Below, one piece after another: positions 22,833-32,359 of a DNA stretch of 64,000 nt; position 1 is the first letter of the stretch, and each line of letters opens with the position of its first letter. The stretch is taken from positions 124,001 through 188,000 of the forward strand of contig NZ_CP159402.1 of the NCBI RefSeq assembly GCF_040500525.1, read 5' to 3'. This DNA is from Azospirillum formosense. Its GTDB lineage: Bacteria > Pseudomonadota > Alphaproteobacteria > Azospirillales > Azospirillaceae. A program made the translations under genes and the position numbers. The notes under the pieces are model-generated. The model searched no databases and was not told the origin of the DNA. It was given only the letters and a program-made list of their open reading frames with translations.

Positions 22833-22906
22833 GCGGGTGTAGCTCAATGGTAGAGCAGAAGCTTCCCAAGCTTACGACGAGGGTTCGATTCCCTTCACCC
22901 GCTCCA
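22833..22906 (+). tRNA. tRNA-Gly(CCC)
   Basis: A 74-nt cloverleaf including an encoded CCA. Acceptor stem GCGGGTG/CACCCGC, D-arm GCTC-AATGGTA-GAGC, anticodon loop TTCCCAA with anticodon CCC, T-arm AGGG-TTCGATT-CCCT. The 3' half is the integration site of the genomic element to the right; integration regenerates an intact tRNA at this end. Confidence 0.95.
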
Positions 22907-22909
22907 ACA
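22860..22909 (+). repeat. attL: 50-bp direct repeat in the 3' half of tRNA-Gly
   Basis: The 50 bases from the anticodon stem to just past the CCA are identical to 32199-32248; the bases on both outer sides differ. This is the attachment-site duplication left by site-specific integration into a tRNA gene and defines the left end of a 9.3-kb element. Confidence 0.93.
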
Positions 22910-22990
22910 CCTTCCCTAAGAAATCAACAAGTTAGCGCCAAACCGGGATGCCCGGTGGTGCTTCGTTGTGCCTGATTCTGCCCCATGCTA

Positions 22991-23106
22991 GCTTACATCG
23001 GTGCTTACACAGGGCGTGTAAGCGGGCTGTAAGCCGATGGCAGGCGAATCAACGCCCCCACGCAAAAAGCCCGCCCAGCGGCCTTGTAAGTGCCTCTCGT
23101 GTAAGC
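22991..23106 (+). promoter_or_regulatory. Cluster of TGTAAGC/GCTTACA sites (probable integrase/excisionase arm sites, left)
   Basis: GCTTACA occurs at 22991 and 23003; TGTAAGC at 23017, 23028 and 23100, with a TGTAAGT variant at 23085. All lie between attL and the integrase start, and the same motif recurs near attR. This is the arrangement of arm-type sites bound by the N-terminal domain of a tyrosine integrase. They may also autoregulate the integrase promoter. Confidence 0.6.
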
Positions 23107-23122
23107 AGGGGGGTGACTAGCC

Positions 23123-24322
23123 ATGGCCCGCGTCCGCCTTACCAAGACCCTCGTGGACGAGCTACAGCCGCCCGAGAAGGGGCAAGCCTTCGTCTGGGAC
23201 AGCGAGGTGCCCGGCTTCGCCGTCCGTGCCACGGCCAGCGGTGCGAAAGCCTGGATCGTTCAGATGCGGGTGCGCGGCGGCAAGGAACGCCGGATGACCA
23301 TCGGGTTCTGCAACAAGGTGCCGCTCGACAAAGCGCGCCAGGAGGCCCGGAAGGTTCTCGCCACCGCCGACCTTGGCCGCGATCCCGCCCAGGAGCGCAA
23401 GGAAGCGCGCGAGGTCAAGCCGGACCTGAACCCGACACTGACCGAGTTCGCGACTCGTTGGCTGGAGGAGGTTGCCGGACGGCGCAACCGCGCGGGCACC
23501 CTGAAGAACCGCCGTCTGCTGCTGAAGAACCACATTCTGCCGGTCCTTGGCGAAAAGCGCATTACGGACATCCGCCGCAAGGACATCGAGGACATGCACC
23601 ACGGGATTTCCAAGCGCTTCCCCGTGGCCGCGAATCGGGCGGTGTCGCTGTGCTCCGCCATCTTCTCCACCGCCGAGCGCTGGGGAATGCTGACCGAGAA
23701 CCCCGCCAACAAGATCGAGCGCAACGCCGAGGAAGGGCGCGAGCGGTATCTGACGCCAGAGGAGATCGCTCGCCTACAGACCGCTCTGGACCAGAGCCAG
23801 GCGCAGGACTCCGCCGATGTGGTCCGCTTGCTGCTGCTGACCGGCGCGCGGGTTGGCGAGGTGCTGGCGATGCAATGGGAGCATGTCGACCTGACTGTCG
23901 GCCTGTGGGTGAAACCGGCCGCCACGACGAAGCAGAAGCGTATCCACCGCGTCCCCCTCTCGCCCGCCGCCGTCGAGGTTCTGGCGAAGCGTCAGAGCGC
24001 CCAGAAGGCGAAGCAGCGCAAGGGCGAGCTGCCGCCGTGGGTCTTCTCCGGCGACGGCGCCAACGGTCACATGACGACCATCCGCACCTTCTGGGCGGCG
24101 GTCTGCCGCCGCGCCGGCATCGAAGGAGTTCGGGTGCATGACGTGCGCCACACCTTCGCCAGCTTGCTCGTGTCGTCGGGGGAGAGCCTGCCCGTGGTTG
24201 GGGCATTGCTGGAGCACACCCAGGCCAAGACGACCAGCCGTTATGCTCATCTTCAGGATGATGCATTGAGAATTGCCACGAACCGTGTTGCGGGAATTAC
24301 CGTATCTCTTCAGAAACAATAA
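23123..24322 (+). CDS. int: Tyrosine-type integrase (P4/tRNA-targeting family)
   Basis: 399 residues. Domains: N-terminal DUF4102-like arm-binding region (about 1-90), core-binding SAM-like domain (about 105-195), catalytic domain (about 210-390). Catalytic residues are visible: R243 in TGARVGEVL, H339 and R342 in HDVRHTFAS, H365 in LEHTQ and Y374 in SRYAHL. It lies 213 bp inside attL and reads away from the tRNA. RBS AGGGGGG precedes ATG 23123. It would integrate and, with a directionality factor, excise the element at tRNA-Gly. Confidence 0.95.
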   Translation: MARVRLTKTLVDELQPPEKGQAFVWDSEVPGFAVRATASGAKAWIVQMRVRGGKERRMTIGFCNKVPLDKARQEARKVLATADLGRDPAQERKEAREVKPDLNPTLTEFATRWLEEVAGRRNRAGTLKNRRLLLKNHILPVLGEKRITDIRRKDIEDMHHGISKRFPVAANRAVSLCSAIFSTAERWGMLTENPANKIERNAEEGRERYLTPEEIARLQTALDQSQAQDSADVVRLLLLTGARVGEVLAMQWEHVDLTVGLWVKPAATTKQKRIHRVPLSPAAVEVLAKRQSAQKAKQRKGELPPWVFSGDGANGHMTTIRTFWAAVCRRAGIEGVRVHDVRHTFASLLVSSGESLPVVGALLEHTQAKTTSRYAHLQDDALRIATNRVAGITVSLQKQ

Positions 24323-24352
24323 TCCTGAAAATTGTGATAGTCGGGAGGGAAT

Positions 24353-24910
24353 ATGGAGCGGGGACTTCCTTATGAAGACTTCCTTTGTAATAATCTTGGA
24401 TCAATAATTGCTAATACAATAAATATTGGAAAGGGTTTAGGTGAAGAAGAAGGGATGGAGTACGTTCACGATTTTATAGATATGTTTATTAATGGAGCAG
24501 TGGTTGCGTATGGGCGTCCTCGTGATGGCGATTTGCACAGCCAAATAACAAGGGAATTTTGGATTTACTTTAAGGCGCATGCCAAGATGAGAGATTTTTC
24601 ATTTGATATCCGTGATGACCATTGGGGTGTTGTAGGCCCTACGTTTGGAAAGTGTTTTGTGGATGTCATTGTTAAGGAAACTAAAGAGATGACGGCACTT
24701 CCTCGTAAGGGACGGGCTCCGAAATCTGGATGGAAGATTGTTGCAGCTATTGCATGCAGAGTAATAGGAAAAGAAAGCTATCCAGAAACCCAGGCAAAAA
24801 TGATAGAAAAAATCGACGAAGAAATAAATAAACTTGGAATTAATCTCGACTACAGCCATGAAACCATAAAAGATTTCGTGTCTACTATATATAAATTTAA
24901 GCCAAGATAA
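24353..24910 (+). CDS. Hypothetical protein, AT-rich cargo gene
   Basis: 185 residues, not recognised. Soluble, mixed charge: MERGLPYEDFLCNNLGSIIA, a central aromatic stretch (FWIYFKAHAKMRDFSFDIRDDHWGVVG) and a C-terminal Lys/Glu-rich part ending YKFKPR. Strong RBS GGGAGGGA precedes the ATG. GC content is far lower than that of the integrase before it and codon use is unlike the host chromosome, indicating separate acquisition. Position just downstream of the integrase, in the cargo slot of a mobile element, makes an accessory role (defence, addiction) possible but unproven. Confidence 0.6.
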   Translation: MERGLPYEDFLCNNLGSIIANTINIGKGLGEEEGMEYVHDFIDMFINGAVVAYGRPRDGDLHSQITREFWIYFKAHAKMRDFSFDIRDDHWGVVGPTFGKCFVDVIVKETKEMTALPRKGRAPKSGWKIVAAIACRVIGKESYPETQAKMIEKIDEEINKLGINLDYSHETIKDFVSTIYKFKPR

Positions 24911-25019
24911 TTAGGTGAGGTTGGGGAAAGCCATTTTTCCCCTTTCTTACCCTACTTACGTCGACAAGTACGCATCCGTGGGAAAAATGAGGGCCTCTTG
25001 ACCGCTGAGAGGCACCTCG

Positions 25020-25262
25020 ATGAGCAAACGTTCCATTCTACGCAAGTCTGCGGCAAACCCCCTCGAGAGGCTTTGCACGCCGGAGGAGGCGGGTGAAACT
25101 TTTGGAATTGCACCGCAGACGCTGGCCCATTGGCGCGTCCGTGGATGCGGTCCCCGCTATCTCACCCTGTCGGCGCGTTGCGTTCGATATCGGGTTTCAG
25201 ACATACAGGAGTGGCTTGATAGCCGAACAAAGGAGTCGACAGCGGAAAACGATAAATCGTGA
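25020..25262 (+). CDS. Helix-turn-helix excisionase/AlpA-like protein
   Basis: 80 residues with the HTH_17 (MerR-like excisionase) pattern: LCTPEEAGETFGIAPQTLAHWRVRGCGPRYLTL followed by VRYRVSDIQEWLDSR. Such proteins act as recombination directionality factors or as regulators of plasmid replication genes. GAGAGG lies 6 nt upstream of the ATG. The stop overlaps the GTG start of repA, so the two are translationally coupled, pointing to a joint control role. Confidence 0.8.
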   Translation: MSKRSILRKSAANPLERLCTPEEAGETFGIAPQTLAHWRVRGCGPRYLTLSARCVRYRVSDIQEWLDSRTKESTAENDKS

Positions 25263-26281
25263 CCGCCATGAAATTTCCCAGCGCGGCGGGTCAAGTTGCC
25301 TTTCGTCCAAACCATTTGATCGAACAACAAAGTGGTAATTCGCACTCTCAACGGGTATCGCAAGAAACACCGATTGAGAATATTAATGACGTGGGAAAAC
25401 ATCTAAAATCACGCAAGCCGATTGTGGAGCGAATTACCAATGCGGGAGCCGAAATTCGATCGTCAAAACCAAGTTCCATAAACTTTCTGCATTCAGTGTT
25501 GTGTCAAGTTGGATTGCCTCGTAGCTGCACCAAGGATGATAGCTTCGAGCGAACAAACGGAAATGTATCATTGTTATTGAGGGCAGGTTCGCTTTGGACA
25601 GGACGCGGGTGGGAAAAACAACCGCTTCCTTATGGGGCTATGCCCAGGCTGGTGCTGATTCACCTGTGTTCTGAGGCGGTCCGAACAAACTCACCGGTTA
25701 TGCAACTCGGCGACAGCATACGCAGTTTTCTGCTGACGATCGGTGTTGATACCGGAGGACACGAATACAAGCGCTTCCAGGCACAGATGAAGGCTCTGGC
25801 GGCCTGCGAAATGCGGCTGGGCATCGGACAGACCACGGTACAAGCTCAGCCTATCGAACGTTTCGAGGCATGGCTACATGAGACAGGGAAGCAGGGAACG
25901 CTATGGCCGGGCACGTTAGAGCTTTCACTGCGCTTCTACGACACGTTGCGTCAATTCGCAGTTCCTTTGGACCCGCGCGCCCTGGGCGCCTTGCGGCACT
26001 CGGCGTTGGCCTTGGACACCTACACATGGTTGGCTCACCGGCTGCACCGTGTTCGGGCAGCAGCCGGCGCCAAGGTATCGTGGGCGAACCTTCGCGACCA
26101 GTTCGGACAGGAGTACAGCGACAAGAAGAACTTCAAGCGTGAAATGTGGAAAGCGTTGATAATGGCTATGGCGGTCTATCCCGAGGCCAGGGTCGAGCCC
26201 GTTGAGGGCGGCATACTTTTGCGACAGTCGCCCCCACCCATCGCGAAGGAGGCGTTCCCCGTCAAAACCCTTTGGTCGTGA
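25259..26281 (+). CDS. repA: Plasmid replication initiator RepA
   Basis: 340 residues. The C-terminal two thirds match the plasmid RepA family (RepA_C type): LPYGAMPRLVLIHLCSEAVRTNSPVMQLGDSIRSFLLTIG, YKRFQAQMKALAACEMRLG and LDTYTWLAHRLHRV are its hallmarks. The N-terminal ~90 residues are polar and low-complexity. It is followed directly by an iteron origin. GTG 25259 overlaps the upstream stop; an ATG at 25268 is the alternative. Presence in a chromosomal element implies a plasmid ancestry or a replicative excised form. Confidence 0.85.
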   Translation: MTAMKFPSAAGQVAFRPNHLIEQQSGNSHSQRVSQETPIENINDVGKHLKSRKPIVERITNAGAEIRSSKPSSINFLHSVLCQVGLPRSCTKDDSFERTNGNVSLLLRAGSLWTGRGWEKQPLPYGAMPRLVLIHLCSEAVRTNSPVMQLGDSIRSFLLTIGVDTGGHEYKRFQAQMKALAACEMRLGIGQTTVQAQPIERFEAWLHETGKQGTLWPGTLELSLRFYDTLRQFAVPLDPRALGALRHSALALDTYTWLAHRLHRVRAAAGAKVSWANLRDQFGQEYSDKKNFKREMWKALIMAMAVYPEARVEPVEGGILLRQSPPPIAKEAFPVKTLWS

Positions 26282-26286
26282 TGGTT

Positions 26287-26460
26287 CGGGACATCACCAC
26301 CCCCTCGCAGGTGTGCGTATCGCGCGGGAAACTGCAAGGTTATCCACGGGACATTACCACCCCTTCGTTCGGGACTATGCCACCCCCGGCATTCGAGTCG
26401 GATACGGGAGATCACCACCCCATAATACCGGTAATATTATTCCTCTAAATTTCTTACCGG
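26287..26460 (+). other. Putative iteron origin of replication (oriV)
   Basis: Four copies of a 17-bp iteron, consensus CGGGACATYACCACCCC, start at 26287, 26347, 26370 and 26405 (the third and fourth are degenerate). TTATCCACG at 26340-26348 matches a DnaA box in eight of nine positions and abuts iteron 2. An AT-rich stretch follows (26421-26455, including GGTAATATTATTCC) and is bracketed by ACCGGT-containing repeats. Iterons, DnaA box and AT-rich region next to repA are the classical parts of a RepA-dependent origin. Confidence 0.75.
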
Positions 26461-26561
26461 TGGTTGGATGCTCACCATCGGGGGATAATGCGCGGCGACC
26501 ATGCTCCGCGGCGCGACCCCCGCGCTGACCGCGGAGGTCATGGACCACAGCCTCACCCATC

Positions 26562-27314
26562 CTACTCCATGGACAGTCCGGTAGGCAGAATGGCATCAAG
26601 CTGCCGATACAGCTCGTTGCGCATCAACGTCAGCCGTTGACGCGTCATGATCCGAGTGTCGGCGTCGGCAATAACCTCCGCAAAGGTCCTTCGCTTCTCC
26701 AACATCTGGCGTAAATCTGTGCCAAAGGTCGCGGGATCTTTGTTCGGGATTTGAACGAGGCCGGCGTATCGGTGAAGGTTGCTGGTATAAACCTTCATCT
26801 CTTTGAACGAGTGTCTGTCAGGGGCGATGATCGGGCCGAAAAATTCATTCAGCCACACGACGATTGGAACGCCGGGCGGCAGCGAGTGAATGGTCCGGCC
26901 CAAGCCCTCCAGCGTCTCAAGTTGGGCCGAGCCGCCCGCGACAACGGAGTGAACCATCACGTTCCACCCCTGGCTTTCCAACGGGCGCACGATTGAGCCA
27001 TCGGCGAGACGATTGGCCAACGGGATGAACAGCGCTGGACCGATGTCGATCACCACGTCGCCGCAGTGGCCAAGCGCGGCGTCGATCATCTGGTTCACAT
27101 CGGAAAGGTTCACGGTGCCGTCGGGCAGCATGTCGAGCGTCTGGGCGCGAAAGCGCCGATAGGTCGAGAAGGCGCTGTTCACCGGATCGGCGTCGAAGGC
27201 CAGCAGCCGACCGTCGTTTTTGTGGCTGTCCTGAATGTATTGGGCGAGAACGGTGGCGACCAGGGTCTTTCCCACGCCGCCTTTGCCCTGAAGCACGATA
27301 TGGACGAACGCCAT
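26562..27314 (-). CDS. traL: TraL-like ParA-family ATPase (IncP type)
   Basis: 250 residues. A deviant Walker A (GKGGVGKT, residues 10-17) within MAFVHIVLQGKGGVGKT, then FDADPVNSAFSTY, VVIDIGPALFIPL, VVWLNEFFGPI, MKVYTSNLHRYAG and MTRQRLTLMRNELYRQLD. This order matches TraL of IncP (RP4/RK2) plasmids rather than partition ParA proteins. TraL lies in the Tra1 leader operon beside oriT; its exact role in transfer is not established. It starts 12 bp after traK, same strand. Confidence 0.82.
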   Translation of the reverse strand: MAFVHIVLQGKGGVGKTLVATVLAQYIQDSHKNDGRLLAFDADPVNSAFSTYRRFRAQTLDMLPDGTVNLSDVNQMIDAALGHCGDVVIDIGPALFIPLANRLADGSIVRPLESQGWNVMVHSVVAGGSAQLETLEGLGRTIHSLPPGVPIVVWLNEFFGPIIAPDRHSFKEMKVYTSNLHRYAGLVQIPNKDPATFGTDLRQMLEKRRTFAEVIADADTRIMTRQRLTLMRNELYRQLDAILPTGLSME

Positions 27315-27325
27315 GTTTGCACCTT

Positions 27326-27670
27326 TCAGTAAAGATCGCTGGAGGTCGGCTTGCTGATCCGGAGAAAGCCCTGCGGCGTCGGTTCGGAACCATGGGATGC
27401 CCGTTGCGGCGCGGGGATCGACGAGGGCGGCGGGGTGGCGGGAGCTGCGGCGCTGGACACCTCGGCCAGGGCGACGAAGCGCGGCAGTGATTTCTCGACG
27501 AGGTAGCGCTTCACGTAAAACTGGAACTGGCGAAGGCCGATGGGCACCTCGGCCGCGAACTGACGGTGGACCGAAGACACCGACCAGCCCTTGACCAGCT
27601 CCGCCCAGATCGCTTCCCGTCGCGCCAGAAACGCCACCCGTCCCGCTGTCGCCTGTCGTCGTGACATCAT
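27326..27670 (-). CDS. traK: TraK-like oriT-binding accessory protein
   Basis: 114 residues. The N-terminal part (residues 10-65: ARREAIWAELVKGWSVSSVH, LRQFQFYVKRYL) matches the TraK/TraK-like family that binds and bends DNA at oriT in IncP plasmids; the tail is proline/alanine-rich. It sits exactly where RP4 has TraK: between traL and oriT, transcribed away from oriT. GGAAGG precedes the tandem ATG codons at 27670/27667. Confidence 0.75.
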   Translation of the reverse strand: MMSRRQATAGRVAFLARREAIWAELVKGWSVSSVHRQFAAEVPIGLRQFQFYVKRYLVEKSLPRFVALAEVSSAAAPATPPPSSIPAPQRASHGSEPTPQGFLRISKPTSSDLY

Positions 27671-27973
27671 CAGCCTTCCCGTCTGTGTATGCGAAGCTCT
27701 TAGTCATTACATAAATGAGAAATGCAGTGTTGAAAAAAATTTTGCACCAACGCGAAGTGAATCGCGGTGTTTAGTGCTGTATGGCATAATAAAGAACCAA
27801 GTGGCATAACGCGTCGATATTTGTATTCGCTGCGCGGTGTTTTTCATTTGCGTTGTAAGGCAGGATGGGTGATGTACCGGTACACTGGTCCATCACGTCC
27901 TTATTCGCCTGCGGCTCAACGGACACCTCCTCTGCGAGGCCGGCAGGCTCCGCCTGCATGAAAGGGATACGTC
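27671..27973 (-). other. oriT: IncP-like origin of transfer (oriT) with nic site
   Basis: Non-coding gap between divergent traK and traJ. On the minus strand, ATCCTGCC preceded by ATCACCC (around 27875-27859) closely resembles the RP4 nic region CACCTATCCTGCCC; the predicted nick is after the G opposite base 27861. An inverted repeat GTGATG (27869-27874) / CATCAC (27891-27896) and the palindrome GTACCGGTAC (27874-27883) lie beside it, as expected for the TraJ-binding arm. AT-rich DNA (27700-27860) flanks it on the traK side. Confidence 0.78.
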
Positions 27974-28333
27974 ATGAAGAGATCGCTAAAGGGCGACGGC
28001 ACCCGTCGAACAACATCGCCCATCAACGTCTGGTGCTTGCCGGCCGAACGCGCGGAGATCGAGGCGAACGCCAAGACCGCCGGGCTGTCCCTATCGGCCT
28101 ATCTGAGGGAGGTGGCGCTCGGGACCCAGCCCAGGAACGTCGTCGACTACCAGCAAGTGGACGTGCTGGCACGGACCCACGCCGACATCAATCGACTCGG
28201 GGGCCTTCTCAAGATGTGGCTGACCAACGAAGAGAGGGGAGGCCATCGAGAGGTGTCCGAGCTGCTCGGGCAAATCGCCGAAGCAAGCCGTGCGCTCACC
28301 GATACGGCGAAAAAGATCCTGCGGTCCCCGTAG
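27974..28333 (+). CDS. traJ: TraJ-like oriT recognition protein
   Basis: 119 residues with a ribbon-helix-helix-like N-terminus: PINVWCLPAERAEIEANAKTAGLSLSAYLREVALG, then VVDYQQVDVLARTHADINRLGGLLKMWLT. Both phrases match TraJ of RP4 (PIKVYCLPDER..., VVDYEHVRELARINGDLGRLGGLLKLWLT in memory). TraJ binds next to nic and recruits the relaxase TraI. In IncP plasmids traI follows; here no relaxase gene follows and the reverse-transcriptase operon begins instead. Confidence 0.85.
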   Translation: MKRSLKGDGTRRTTSPINVWCLPAERAEIEANAKTAGLSLSAYLREVALGTQPRNVVDYQQVDVLARTHADINRLGGLLKMWLTNEERGGHREVSELLGQIAEASRALTDTAKKILRSP

Positions 28334-28396
28334 GGCCTCTCGGCGCCGCGGACGGAGAGCCCTCCCGGCCGCAGGGGCATTTTGTGTCGGACGACA

Positions 28397-28639
28397 TGAA
28401 AAACTGATCCAAACGCCTTCCCGGTGCAGCTGAAGCCCAGGTGTCGGAAAATCGTACAGCGATAGTGGAGGAAGTTTGGAGACCGCGCTCACGCCTATGT
28501 GTGTGCGGTAAACGCCCCGTCCCGTCGTCTTCGCCGAATGCGATCGCACTCGGGTACCATCCGCAGGCGGTAAGCCGATCCGCTGCAAGAGCAGAACGGT
28601 CGGCGGTATTGCACAGTCTCCAGAGAAGGTGGTACCACT
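28397..28639 (-). ncRNA. Candidate DRT3-associated non-coding RNA downstream of drt3b
   Basis: A gene-free stretch that, read on the drt strand, has in order: a palindrome at the drt3b stop (GTGGTACCAC), a strong hairpin GCCGA-CCG..CTGC-TCTT-GCAG-CGG-TCGGC (28604 to 28574), palindrome TGCGATCGCA, a stem ACCGC/GCGGT (28509-28505 with 28486-28482) whose 18-nt loop starts ACACACA, and a terminal stem CCAAACTTCC (28479-28470) with GGAA..GTTTGG (28421-28409), then TTTTT. Defence RT systems usually encode an adjacent structured RNA, and an ACACAC template has been reported for DRT3 as I recall. No family model was run. Confidence 0.5.
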
Positions 28640-30601
28640 TTAGTAGACGGCGGACAACTCTTTTTTTTGAATGAGGTTAAGAAGATCGACATGGTCCCAC
28701 TGCACGAACCAAGGGCGTCCTTCTATCTCTGAAACGATTGCGTCGCGCTCTGCGGCTGGAATTGCCGCTAGACCACATTGTTGGCGCAACATATCCAAAA
28801 TGGTCCCTCTAAGGGACTGCGGTAAAAACGGACATGAGATCACATCCAGAGCGAGGTGTGCCTGCTGGGAATGTAAATTGGAGTCTTTTTCACTTACAAG
28901 TTCCTTGACCCTTATAGCGATCTTACTCCTTATGTCGTCATACTGATGCAAATCTCTTATATAGTAAAGACATGAGACGAGTGAGAAGTAATCAGAATTC
29001 TCTATGCAGAACACCTCGTTTGCTAAAAATGCAGATTCCATGCTATGAACATTTGAGAGCTCCCTTGATGCTACCACAATATTTAGAAGTTCTACCGGTA
29101 TCCAACGTGTTGTTGATATCTCATCACCTCGGGCGACACCACGAATAGCTTGAATGCACCATTTATGAATTAGTAGCTCAACCTCCTCCAGGTGTTCAGG
29201 AAGCTTCTCTCTGAAAAATCGCACACCGATTATTACGCCACGAGCGACTTTGAAGGACGACGCCACAGTAGGATGCACAGTATATAGGAAGAATACTATT
29301 TCTATGTACGTCAAAAACAAAGATACATATAGTTTACTTTCAATTTCGTTTTTTGATTTAACTTTGGCATAGTCTTCGCTTAGAACTTCAATTCGCTTAA
29401 CAATGCTTGATATTTTATAGTTTACGATTGAGTCATAACCGACGCCAGCATCTGCACATATAGCCTTCACAGATGAGATGAAGGATCTGACCAATGCCGG
29501 ACGATTTCCAATTTTTTTCGGTGCTAGAAGCTTGTCTCCAGTCTCCTCTATAGTGCTTTCGAACATAATTTTAAGCGTTTCTTTAGCTCTATGGATAATA
29601 AAAGACTTCTTTGTGATAAAGGGCCGACCATATCTGTCGAGTTTGCCTTCGTTGATGTGGAGATTGTATTCTGAAAGAGAGTCAGAGATGATTTTGAAGA
29701 TGATCCCGGCTGTTTTTTCGTCCTTTGAAAACAATATGTAATCATCAACATACCTACGGCATTCAAAGTCCTTGCCGACCCAAAACCCTGCCGTTTTGGC
29801 TCTTTCTACAACTAGCTTGTCTACATCTTGTAGTATAATCTCAGCAAATATACGACTCACCTCTGGGCCGATACAAATTCCGTTCGTTTCATTGATGTTC
29901 ATCTTCTGCATGAGTTTGTCGAACTCGTTGCCAAACGTAATGGCGGAAACATTGCTCTTTGAGTGGTCTGAATTTTTTACAGCCCAGGCTATAGTGTGTG
30001 TGTATATGCTAGAAAAGCACTTTGATACGTCGATAAGCCACATGGAGGCAAACTTTTTCTCCAGCCTCATAAAATCGTTCGAATCGAAAAATTGATAGAT
30101 CCGCTGGTATCCTGCATATGCGAAGTATGAAGATGGATTCCGCAAAAATTTTTCTTTAGGAGCCAAATCTATAAGGGAAGATTTGTACTTGTTTTGGTCA
30201 GAAGAAGAGCCTTTGTATGAGTACGATCCTCCAATTTTTACAGGTCGCCGGATAGAGAATGTTCCGTTACTGCAAAAGTAGCTGATGACTGACGAATATT
30301 CTTTATAAAACTTTACCACGTTGTATTGAGATGAAGGGTGAGGCAAGCTAAGCTGACGCATGGAAATTGCGTCTTTCGTAATTTTATATCGGTAGGGCGT
30401 AGTGTACTTTCTGTCATTTTCGACGATGAGCGTGCGGACCAGTTCGCTCAAGCCGGCCGATGCCTTGGCGATGTGCCTTAGATTATCGTAGAAACCATCA
30501 TTTGACACTATGATAGGCACTTCATAGGGAGCGGTGTCTGACAGAACCGCACGAACAATGTCTGATTTACGAAGATTTCCCTTCACATATTTCTTACGCA
30601 T
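28640..30601 (-). CDS. drt3b: Defence-associated reverse transcriptase, DRT3 second subunit (Drt3b/UG8-like)
   Basis: 653 residues, AT-rich. RT motif A is MWLIDVSKCFSSIY (Asp191), motif B NETNGICIGPEVSRIFAEI (about 237-254), motif C RRYVDDYILFSK with catalytic Asp286-Asp287. The N-terminal ~180 residues are a long extension and residues ~320-653 form a helical C-terminal region with no maturase, endonuclease or nitrilase domain, so it is neither a group II intron nor DRT1. The start overlaps the first RT gene by 8 bp (translational coupling). Two dissimilar RTs of about 415 and 653 residues in one operon are the described DRT type 3 (UG3 + UG8) layout. UG assignment is by architecture and needs an HMM search. 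Confidence 0.8.
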   Translation of the reverse strand: MRKKYVKGNLRKSDIVRAVLSDTAPYEVPIIVSNDGFYDNLRHIAKASAGLSELVRTLIVENDRKYTTPYRYKITKDAISMRQLSLPHPSSQYNVVKFYKEYSSVISYFCSNGTFSIRRPVKIGGSYSYKGSSSDQNKYKSSLIDLAPKEKFLRNPSSYFAYAGYQRIYQFFDSNDFMRLEKKFASMWLIDVSKCFSSIYTHTIAWAVKNSDHSKSNVSAITFGNEFDKLMQKMNINETNGICIGPEVSRIFAEIILQDVDKLVVERAKTAGFWVGKDFECRRYVDDYILFSKDEKTAGIIFKIISDSLSEYNLHINEGKLDRYGRPFITKKSFIIHRAKETLKIMFESTIEETGDKLLAPKKIGNRPALVRSFISSVKAICADAGVGYDSIVNYKISSIVKRIEVLSEDYAKVKSKNEIESKLYVSLFLTYIEIVFFLYTVHPTVASSFKVARGVIIGVRFFREKLPEHLEEVELLIHKWCIQAIRGVARGDEISTTRWIPVELLNIVVASRELSNVHSMESAFLANEVFCIENSDYFSLVSCLYYIRDLHQYDDIRSKIAIRVKELVSEKDSNLHSQQAHLALDVISCPFLPQSLRGTILDMLRQQCGLAAIPAAERDAIVSEIEGRPWFVQWDHVDLLNLIQKKELSAVY

Positions 30602-31841
30602 AGTTCCAGCACCTCACTAGGTCTTGCATTCTTTCGCCGCTAAAATGGTAGTATATATTGTTTGAGAAGCCTCTGCTGAATGTAAGTGAGAGGAGATTGT
30701 CCCTTTGCTCCCTGGATATAGAGGAGTATAACTTGCCAAGTTTTCCATTTCTATTGAGAACGATACGCCTCCAAAATGCATCGAGATCGGAAATGGCGAC
30801 GGAGCTAGATATATTTATCATGCTGTAGCTGTACCTCAAGCCAAGTTTCCGAACTATGCTCTTCTCGTAATCGTACATCTTGTATGAGCCAGTGATAAAC
30901 TTCATCCTGTCTTCTAGATCTTTGAAACTGTTATCTTTTAAGAACTTCAGAACAGACAATGCTATTCTGGACTTTATCTTCTTTACCTTGTAGCCGGCTA
31001 TATCAACGTCCACCTTTCTTGCAATTCTGTTGGCGCTATCCTTCTGTCTCTCAAATATTTTAAAACAGTATCCAAGAAATTCGACTCTGCCAACCATGTT
31101 CGGGGTAGCAGATTTTTTAATTGGTGGGTTTTGTGCTTCTGTTATTCTTGTCTTGCTCTGGTTTAGATTAAGTCCCTTGGGTAAGTACCGCTTTATGCAT
31201 TTAACAAAGTCCTTTCGCGTTTCTTTACGATCAGTGATAATGACGATATCATCTACAAATCTGGCATAGAAAAAAATACCCTTCCCCGACCGAACATTGC
31301 GATCAAAGGTCCGCATAACGTATTCAGAAAGCGTAGCGCTTAATGGCACGCCTCTTGGAAGTCCTGGAATGCCCTGGCTTTCAAGGGAAGCGAAAAAGAT
31401 TTTTATTGCAAGCAATGAATCCCTTGGAAATCCAACGTCAGAAGTGAGCTCAGCAAGCAGATCGTCCCTGTTGATAGACTCGTAGAAGCTTTTTATGTCA
31501 AACCTATACACCCGATAATCCACGCCCTCGGCTAGGAATGATCGAAGGCAATTTACAATGTTCTCTCTATTAGCTTGCTTTACTCGGGTAATCCTCCTTA
31601 GATTGTTGTTTAACTTTCGTATAACAAGAGTGTGGCAAAATTCACTTGCTTGGAATACCTTCTTCCCGCGTCTTTCATGCGATGAAAATGATATGGTTCC
31701 AGTGCTATTCTTGGCAAAATCGACAGCCGTCGCGACGGCTTGATCCAAAACACTTTTGTTTCTTATTGCCGTATTGGTTTCAAAATCGGAAGTACGCACT
31801 TCCTTTCTGATCGACCGTACGTCAAATGCCATGGTTGCCAT
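30594..31841 (-). CDS. drt3a: Defence-associated reverse transcriptase, DRT3 first subunit (Drt3a/UG3-like)
   Basis: 415 residues. RT core: motif A YRFDIKSFYESINR (Asp115), motif B GLPRGVPLSATLSEYVMRTF (about 160-179), motif C FYARFVDDIVIITD with Asp197-Asp198, then NLNQSKTRI (motif D region) and VEFLGYCFKI (motif E). No X/thumb maturase or HNH domain. ATG 31841 is chosen because GGGAGAG lies 4-5 nt upstream; an ATG at 31904 would add 21 residues of unlikely sequence. It is first of the two-gene operon. Base composition contrasts sharply with the tra genes beside it. Confidence 0.8.
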   Translation of the reverse strand: MATMAFDVRSIRKEVRTSDFETNTAIRNKSVLDQAVATAVDFAKNSTGTISFSSHERRGKKVFQASEFCHTLVIRKLNNNLRRITRVKQANRENIVNCLRSFLAEGVDYRVYRFDIKSFYESINRDDLLAELTSDVGFPRDSLLAIKIFFASLESQGIPGLPRGVPLSATLSEYVMRTFDRNVRSGKGIFFYARFVDDIVIITDRKETRKDFVKCIKRYLPKGLNLNQSKTRITEAQNPPIKKSATPNMVGRVEFLGYCFKIFERQKDSANRIARKVDVDIAGYKVKKIKSRIALSVLKFLKDNSFKDLEDRMKFITGSYKMYDYEKSIVRKLGLRYSYSMINISSSVAISDLDAFWRRIVLNRNGKLGKLYSSISREQRDNLLSLTFSRGFSNNIYYHFSGERMQDLVRCWNYA

Positions 31842-32198
31842 AGCTCTCCCTCTTGGCAAATCCGACGGGTGGTGTGTCTCAGTGAACTTCTGGCAGTTGT
31901 ACATCCATTCAAATATGATGGCAACTTAGGATGCATATGCCTTCAGCTACCGAAAAAAGTTCTGCCGTATAGCGGTAAGGTGTCATCGCGTGCGCCAAAC
32001 GCCTCATTTGATCGCATTTTCGCGATAGGTGATTGCGCATATTCACGTCGCGGCCGATCTGAGAGGCGGCGACGGTAGATACCGGCGCTTCGACCGTTCC
32101 GTTAGCTACTGCCCTGCGACACTTACACAAGAGCTTACAACGCCCACTTGGATTCATTATGTGCGATAAAATTCAATGTATTAGAGGAGCGTATTGCG
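31842..32198 (-). other. Leader and promoter region of the RT operon; secondary ncRNA candidate
   Basis: About 350 bp without a supported gene. On the minus strand it holds CGTCGC/GCGACG (32074-32046), TGCGC/GCGCA enclosing ATCGC-GAAAAT-GCGAT (around 32026-32011), and an ACACAC at 31877-31872, just 31 nt before the drt3a start. It must contain the RT promoter and could encode a leader RNA. The fold is less convincing than that of the downstream region. Confidence 0.4.
32121..32139 (+). promoter_or_regulatory. GCTTACA arm-type sites near attR
   Basis: ACTTACA (32121-32127) and GCTTACA (32133-32139), spaced 12 bp apart, repeat the motif clustered beside attL (where two copies are also 12 bp apart). 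Location 60 bp inside attR fits integrase arm sites. Confidence 0.5.
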
Positions 32199-32248
32199 AG
32201 CTTCCCAAGCTTACGACGAGGGTTCGATTCCCTTCACCCGCTCCAACA
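32199..32248 (+). repeat. attR: 50-bp direct repeat of tRNA-Gly 3' end
   Basis: Identical over 50 bases to 22860-22909. It holds only the 3' part of the tRNA (from the anticodon stem on), preceded by element DNA lacking an acceptor 5' strand or D-arm, so it is a tRNA remnant and not a gene. It marks the right end of the integrated element. Confidence 0.93.
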
Positions 32249-32359
32249 ACTCCTTTAAAAAATCAGAGGTCTGCCGAAGCCTGAACGTTCCAGGCGCGCG
32301 GGCTTGCGGGGTGGCCGCGGACGTTGTCCGGCGGCCCAATCCCCGTTGTAGACCGGCGC

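Follow-up and report, generated by a model that had tools for sequence, protein, structure and literature searches.

The window analyzed here is the whole stretch of 64,000 nucleotides (nt) of Azospirillum formosense that runs from position 124,001 to 188,000 of contig NZ_CP159402.1 (assembly GCF_040500525.1). On its minus strand lie two overlapping reverse transcriptase genes followed by a noncoding RNA (ncRNA). This locus is very probably an apparently intact anti-phage system of the DRT3 type (defense-associated reverse transcriptases, type 3), the cargo of a 9.3-kb mobilizable-type element at a tRNA-Gly(CCC) gene. The genes, the residues, the template and closing helix of the RNA, and the insertion are all seen directly in this DNA. 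The features of the locus itself are the following:

30594..31841, minus strand: drt3a, a 415-residue reverse transcriptase of the UG3 class with an FVDD active site (NF041747, PDLC02175, PDB 9z6y_A)
28640..30601, minus strand: drt3b, a 653-residue reverse transcriptase of the UG8 class with a C-terminal helical domain (NF041748, PDLC02176, PDB 9z6y_H and 26cz_A)
28477..28622, minus strand: core of the DRT3 ncRNA, 146 nt, spanning both arms of the closing helix, from which its ends were placed
28611..28622, minus strand: 5′ arm of the closing helix, TGGAGACTGTGC, recognized by pairing
28498..28505, minus strand: template CACACACA, which contains ACACAC; (AC)3 or (CA)3 stands at the same place in relatives
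28477..28488, minus strand: 3′ arm of the closing helix, GCGCGGTCTCCA, recognized by pairing; 0 of 83 foreign 3′ arms pair as well

The longest open reading frame of drt3a (30594–31904) codes for 436 residues, and a start at 31841 gives the 415-residue protein. A ribosome-binding-like GGGAGAG precedes this start, and the match to the top family model begins accordingly at residue 22 of the 436-residue form. Both active sites are intact: FVDD starts at residue 216 in the longer form of Drt3a, and YVDD occupies residues 284–287 of Drt3b. The two genes overlap by 8 nt, and each protein shows in Pfam an RVT_1 domain only. Reading frames, motifs, and domains thus bear out the original prediction of two overlapping minus-strand reverse transcriptase genes of 415 and 653 residues with FVDD and YVDD motifs. 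The drt3 genes have a G+C content of 42%, against 71% in both flanks of the element and 58% in its part at 22927–28600.

Assignment to DRT3

Drt3a scores 361.6 bits against NCBIfam NF041747 (cut-off 200) and Drt3b scores 644.1 bits against NF041748 (cut-off 350). In PADLOC, the E value is 1.2e-128 for Drt3a (PDLC02175; next family 2.8e-25) and 4.8e-211 for Drt3b (PDLC02176; next family 1.9e-46), the Drt3b models reaching 629–701 bits and the next family, Drt6, only 157. The NCBIfam models of group II introns, retrons, Drt2, Drt4, and Drt5 all stay under their cut-offs for these proteins (Drt4 gives 125 on Drt3b, for a cut-off of 450) and are rejected, as are the other UG classes on the PADLOC and NCBIfam scores. 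The best matches in the Protein Data Bank (PDB) are a solved Drt3a chain for Drt3a (9z6y_A, E = 1.5e-68) and a solved Drt3b chain for Drt3b (9z6y_H, E = 2.5e-138), the latter followed by 26cz. Drt3a is the UG3 (Class 2) and Drt3b the UG8 (Class 1) reverse transcriptase (Wang et al. 2026, PMC13174585). The pairing of UG3 with UG8, already proposed in the original prediction, is supported by these family scores and PDB matches, together with the gate and priming residues and the ncRNA template described below. In the hidden Markov model search, the best match of neither protein is a group II intron, a retron, a diversity-generating retroelement, or another class of reverse transcriptase.

The predicted model of Drt3b has a mean predicted local distance difference test score (pLDDT) of 82.7, and its fold is closest to DRT4, DRT6, UG15, AbiP2, and AbiK (Z 16–23 over 442–501 residues). 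This fold search listed no Drt3 chain, an uninformative absence since its library ends in April 2026.

Gating, Priming, and Active-Site Residues

In the Drt3b that has been studied, E22 gates adenine, R241 gates cytosine, R71 is used, and synthesis is primed on Y666 (Wang et al. 2026, PMC13174585). These residue numbers fit chain 26cz_A at an offset of 108 (chain number minus 108 gives the numbering of the paper), for which reason we take 26cz_A to be the Drt3b of EcoDRT3. All four residues then fall on aligned positions, and E22, R71, R241, and Y666 correspond to E27, R82, R250, and Y653 of the protein studied here.

The same positions can be followed among relatives. Eighty-eight loci were compared: the 80 best-matching of 462 relatives, seven of the 11 plasmid records, and the window. 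The alignment of Drt3b holds 85 proteins, without L084, L085, and L079, in the last of which a frame change interrupts the match. The position of R250 is arginine in all 85 proteins and that of R82 in 82 of 85. The position of E27 is glutamate in 53 and aspartate in 29, with a gap in three (L039, L082, and L095, the last two being partial matches); an E22D mutant of the studied protein retains partial synthesis (PMC13174585). The priming tyrosine, Y653, is present in 83 of 85 (it is missing in L039 and L093). The active site reads YVDN rather than YVDD in nine of the 85 (L026, L027, L029, L032, L062, L063, L073, L086, and L094). Among 85 aligned rows of Drt3a, 49 have YVDD and 29 have FVDD, as here, with five gaps and two other motifs.

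Distribution of DRT3 among Relatives

Drt3a lies on the same strand in 85 of the 87 other Drt3b loci. Of the two exceptions, L082 has a Drt3b match that starts 6 nt into the available sequence, and L095 one that starts 198 nt into it. Relatives of Drt3b occur on plasmids (11 records); among phage records there are three weak matches (21–32% identity), and a scan of viral contigs with Drt3b gives no relative.

A search for Drt3b in 145 genomes (the source genome, G000, and its relatives) gives matches to the model in 10, of which only the source genome and G131 have a near full-length protein; the other eight matches are partial and reach at most 109 bits. There is one DRT3 copy in the source genome. 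This distribution fits a recent arrival of DRT3 in its genus as sampled.

The Downstream RNA

The template CACACACA stands 135 nt past the stop of drt3b, and a 12-bp helix closes the core around it, as found by sequence tests. The region 28639–28470 folds better than its shuffles (z = −2.72, with one of 200 shuffles as good). The original prediction made no mention of this ncRNA (28622–28477), which lies inside the interval it covered.

The template is a general feature of these loci. At 41–240 nt after drt3b, (AC)3 or (CA)3 is found in 84 of 86 DRT3 loci (L085, which has no stop, and L084, which ends 15 nt past it, were left out), and in 71 of the 73 clusters formed at 70% protein identity. 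In five control stretches taken from these loci the motif occurs in 3/87, 2/87, 0/80, 4/79, and 2/79; it occurs in 6% of mononucleotide shuffles, and other dinucleotide repeats in at most 8 of 86 loci. The RNA analysis of PMC13174585 covers 41 systems according to a figure legend and 32 unique hits according to its methods, and is extended by this count of 86 loci and by the conservation of the gates. Snodgrassella differs: in L059, L061, and L137 the coding strand carries no (AC)3 within 990 nt past drt3b. Drt3b is intact in all three, with Drt3a upstream in L059 and L061, and the RNA may lie elsewhere in these genomes or have a different template.

When 26 of 32 hand-picked ncRNA regions are aligned with MAFFT, the template columns are fixed and the 5′ arm stays unaligned. 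The closing helix was therefore examined with a foreign-arm test instead of a covariance model, each 5′ arm being paired with the 3′ arms of other loci and compared with its own score. At the locus studied here none of the 83 foreign arms reaches this score, and none of 70 after clustering. At most 5% of the foreign arms do so in 64 of 84 loci, and 55 of 71 clusters pass. When shuffles take the place of foreign arms, 63 of 84 loci have no more than 2 of 40 that reach their own score. The test failed in 20 of 84 loci, including those of Bacteroides (L018), Zymomonas (L017), two of three Vibrio (L015 and L051), and the sphingomonads L014 and L021. Because of these failures, the closing helix as defined here is typical of DRT3 but not universal.

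Proposed Mechanism

In the published DRT3 polymerase, amino acids set the repeating DNA sequence, and the system by itself protects against phages (PMC13174585). The chemistry and defense role of the present locus can be sketched by carrying them over from these homologues. Following the published E. coli mechanism, Drt3a would copy the CACACACA stretch of the downstream RNA repeatedly into poly-(dTdG). With its own Y653 as the primer, Drt3b would add dC and dA alternately, with no nucleic-acid template, and so make poly-(dCdA), E27 letting in dA and R250 dC. Annealing of these strands would give double-stranded repeat DNA, which a host double-strand exonuclease would remove in healthy cells. 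A phage that blocks the nuclease would let the repeat DNA accumulate, and the cell would stop growing. The locus, a distant and apparently complete natural variant, agrees with the published model in its residues and its template.

Which Nuclease Controls DRT3?

In E. coli the controlling nuclease is RecBCD: DRT3 plasmids are not propagated in strains lacking any one of its subunits, and the system is triggered when lambda gam, the gene for an inhibitor of RecBCD, is expressed (PMC13174585). The genome of A. formosense studied here gives no RecC match. It has an AddA of the alphaproteobacterial type, which scores 1244 bits (cut-off 860.75).

The same question was put to 50 DRT3 genomes chosen from 80 loci (L020–L099), mostly isolates, with most metagenome-assembled genomes left out and completeness not given. 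RecC is matched in 27 of them (26 over the cut-off) and has no match in the other 23. The alphaproteobacterial AddA is over its cut-off in 18 of the 23 genomes without RecC and in none of the 27 with it. Only matches over the cut-off are counted here, as below it the AddA model matches all 50 genomes and most control genomes; the remaining five genomes without RecC have only such sub-cut-off matches. Hence nearly half of the sampled DRT3 carriers show no RecC, a gap with respect to the RecBCD requirement seen in E. coli, and one that can be tested.

For the carriers without RecC, either AddAB substitutes for RecBCD or the control of the system differs. In the host studied here the controlling nuclease is unlikely to be standard RecBCD, and AddAB is its likely stand-in. 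More generally, we lean slightly towards the idea that DRT3 guards more than RecBCD, in which case AddAB would keep GT/AC DNA low in AddAB bacteria such as this one, and a phage that inhibits AddAB would trigger the system. If so, the host range of DRT3 would depend on which double-strand DNA exonuclease a cell has. A full-text search for DRT3 together with AddAB found no paper in the library searched, and the word AddAB is absent from the main text of PMC13174585.

The Carrier Element

The locus lies near the right end of an element bounded by two copies of a 67-nt repeat, whose features other than the DRT3 locus are the following:

22833..22906, plus strand: tRNA-Gly (CCC), the target of integration
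22860..22926, plus strand: attL, a 67-nt direct repeat that overlaps the 3′ part of the tRNA and extends beyond it
23123..24322, plus strand: tyrosine-recombinase integrase (PF00589, 92 bits; Arm-DNA-bind_3)
24353..24910, plus strand: 185-residue protein without family, in a stretch of 47% G+C
25020..25262, plus strand: small HTH_17-like regulator (HTH_17, 24.8 bits, under the cut-off of 27)
25259..26281, plus strand: RepA-type plasmid replication protein (PF04796, 53.3 bits, cut-off 26)
26562..27317, minus strand: TraL-like ATPase of IncP type (PRK13886, 213.7 bits, under the cut-off of 360; start taken from the matched range)
27326..27670, minus strand: DUF5338 protein (PF17273, 22 bits, under the cut-off of 25.9), which we take to be TraK-like
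27860..27867, minus strand: nic-like site CATCCTGC of a putative origin of transfer (oriT), 106 nt before traJ
27974..28333, plus strand: TraJ/NikA-like oriT-binding protein (PF21983, 74.2 bits, cut-off 27; PRK13877, 107 bits, under the cut-off of 134)
32199..32265, plus strand: attR, the second copy of the 67-nt repeat, 93% identical to attL

The two att copies are 9339 nt apart, which gives an element of 9.3 kb. Eight of 12 returned loci, from 33 of 46 genomes with a match to the right flank, were examined for the empty site. In three of the eight (L144, L147, and L148) the left flank runs through the tRNA into the right flank without interruption. In L142, L143, L145, and L146 an att-like copy stands ahead of the right flank with no left flank within 1.4 kb, and these genomes may hold other inserts at the same tRNA-Gly; L149 has no att copy at the right flank. 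The att repeats and the empty sites of relatives establish the tRNA-Gly element that had been predicted.

The sole weak Rfam match, to transfer-messenger RNA (13.6 bits, for a gathering threshold of 47, at 32147–32235), was rejected: it overlaps attR, a copy of the 3′ end of the tRNA. Directly 3′ of repA, at 26284–26422 on the plus strand, there is an iteron-like 21-nt repeat in four copies. The AT-rich 185-residue protein (24353–24910) has no match over the cut-off in Pfam and none in NCBIfam or PADLOC, and is possibly further cargo.

The integrase, RepA, the Tra-like genes, and the oriT-like site are compatible with the earlier description of the element as mobilizable. The nic-like motif CATCCTGC, which we take to be that of IncP plasmids, is by itself common in the window (17 sites against 5.9 expected); in L133 it recurs 110 nt ahead of the traJ match, and L132 too has it upstream of traJ. 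Among relaxase families only PF03432 was searched for, and it has no match in the whole genome (its control matched 1 of 14 genomes); TrbI (PF03743) has none either (the control matched 2 of 14). Because of these two absences, transfer of the element would probably need a helper. The same description also placed DRT3 in the slot of a relaxase gene. In IncP plasmids the order is traJ–traI, so that DRT3 would stand where the traI relaxase gene is expected, but this part of the description is weaker, being only an analogy with that order. Of two other traJ loci compared, L132 has behind traJ an open reading frame of 628 residues without family, and the contig of L133 ends 0.9 kb past traJ. L132 is a contig of its own (C6, 16,260 bp) that codes for RepA, a VirC1/ParA-like ATPase, an Abi_2 protein, a 766-residue N6 methylase, and TraJ with the nic-like site; it has no PF03432 relaxase.

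Alternative Explanations

Several observations weigh against taking the locus for a working DRT3 system. The nearest relative found shares only 47% identity with this Drt3b, whose activity would thus be carried over a long distance. Promoter-like sites over 28300–32300 are no commoner than expected by chance (5 against 6.5). Rfam has no family for the ncRNA, and the foreign-arm test has the failures counted above. With no RecC match in the host, finally, the published control may not apply unchanged. Against this background three other explanations can be considered.

One is that the operon mainly serves the element, by excluding rival plasmids and phages or by stabilizing the element through toxicity, and not the defense of the host at large. 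Its place in a mobile element, with traJ on one side and attR on the other, would suit such a role, as would the plasmid records of Drt3b relatives and the failure of DRT3 to be propagated in E. coli without RecBCD (PMC13174585). However, the protection against phages that DRT3 itself confers has been published (PMC13174585), and the two roles are not exclusive. We regard a role mainly for the element as unlikely.

A second explanation is that the DRT3 locus, intact in sequence, is silent or decayed in this host and a mere passenger of the element. This could account for the single copy in the genome, the full-length Drt3b in only two of the 145 genomes, the promoter-like sites at chance level, and the lack of a RecC match. 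Yet one would expect decay without selection, and the active sites, the gates, the priming tyrosine, the overlap of the genes, the template, and the closing helix are all intact. A silent passenger is quite improbable. That the locus is some other two–reverse transcriptase system, e.g., DRT4/AbiK-like or retron-like, is very nearly negligible as a possibility: the fold of Drt3b is indeed nearest to DRT4, DRT6, UG15, AbiP2, and AbiK, but these share its class, the Drt3b models score far above Drt6, the NCBIfam Drt4 model stays far under its cut-off, and the locus has both a Drt3a partner and an AC template. An anti-phage DRT3 system carried by the element is the reading retained below.

Comparison with Known Systems

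A literature search found no paper linking DRT3, or the term defense-associated reverse transcriptase, with Azospirillum. The locus is apparently an intact and fairly divergent member of DRT3, whose mechanism was already published in 2026, and its interest lies mainly in a host that seems to lack the RecBCD controlling the system in E. coli.

EcoDRT3 (Wang et al. 2026, PMC13174585) has the same order drt3a–drt3b–ncRNA, both active sites, and the ACACAC template. Its Drt3b aligns nearly end to end with the one studied here, with equivalents of E22, R71, R241, and Y666. The present locus differs in its only distantly related sequence (276 bits), in its carriage by a tRNA-Gly element, and in its host, which has AddA and no RecC match. 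The chains of PDB 9z6y/9z6z are probably those of Deng et al. 2026. Both Drt3a and Drt3b match them nearly end to end, and the Drt3b of 9z6y also ends in the aligned tyrosine. They come from another host and element and form a 6:6:6 assembly.

Closest in Drt3b is L020, of the Rhizobiales bacterium isolate AFS084704, with 47% identity and the same ncRNA layout; its closing helix has 11 bp, and the RNA enclosed by the arms has a different sequence and another length. As for the carrier, the related element of the relative G028 (L133) shares the tRNA-Gly(CCC) target, the integrase (89% identical), the HTH protein (65%), TraJ (64%), and a matching oriT-like site. It has other genes between the integrase and traJ, with no Drt3 match in the stretch compared.

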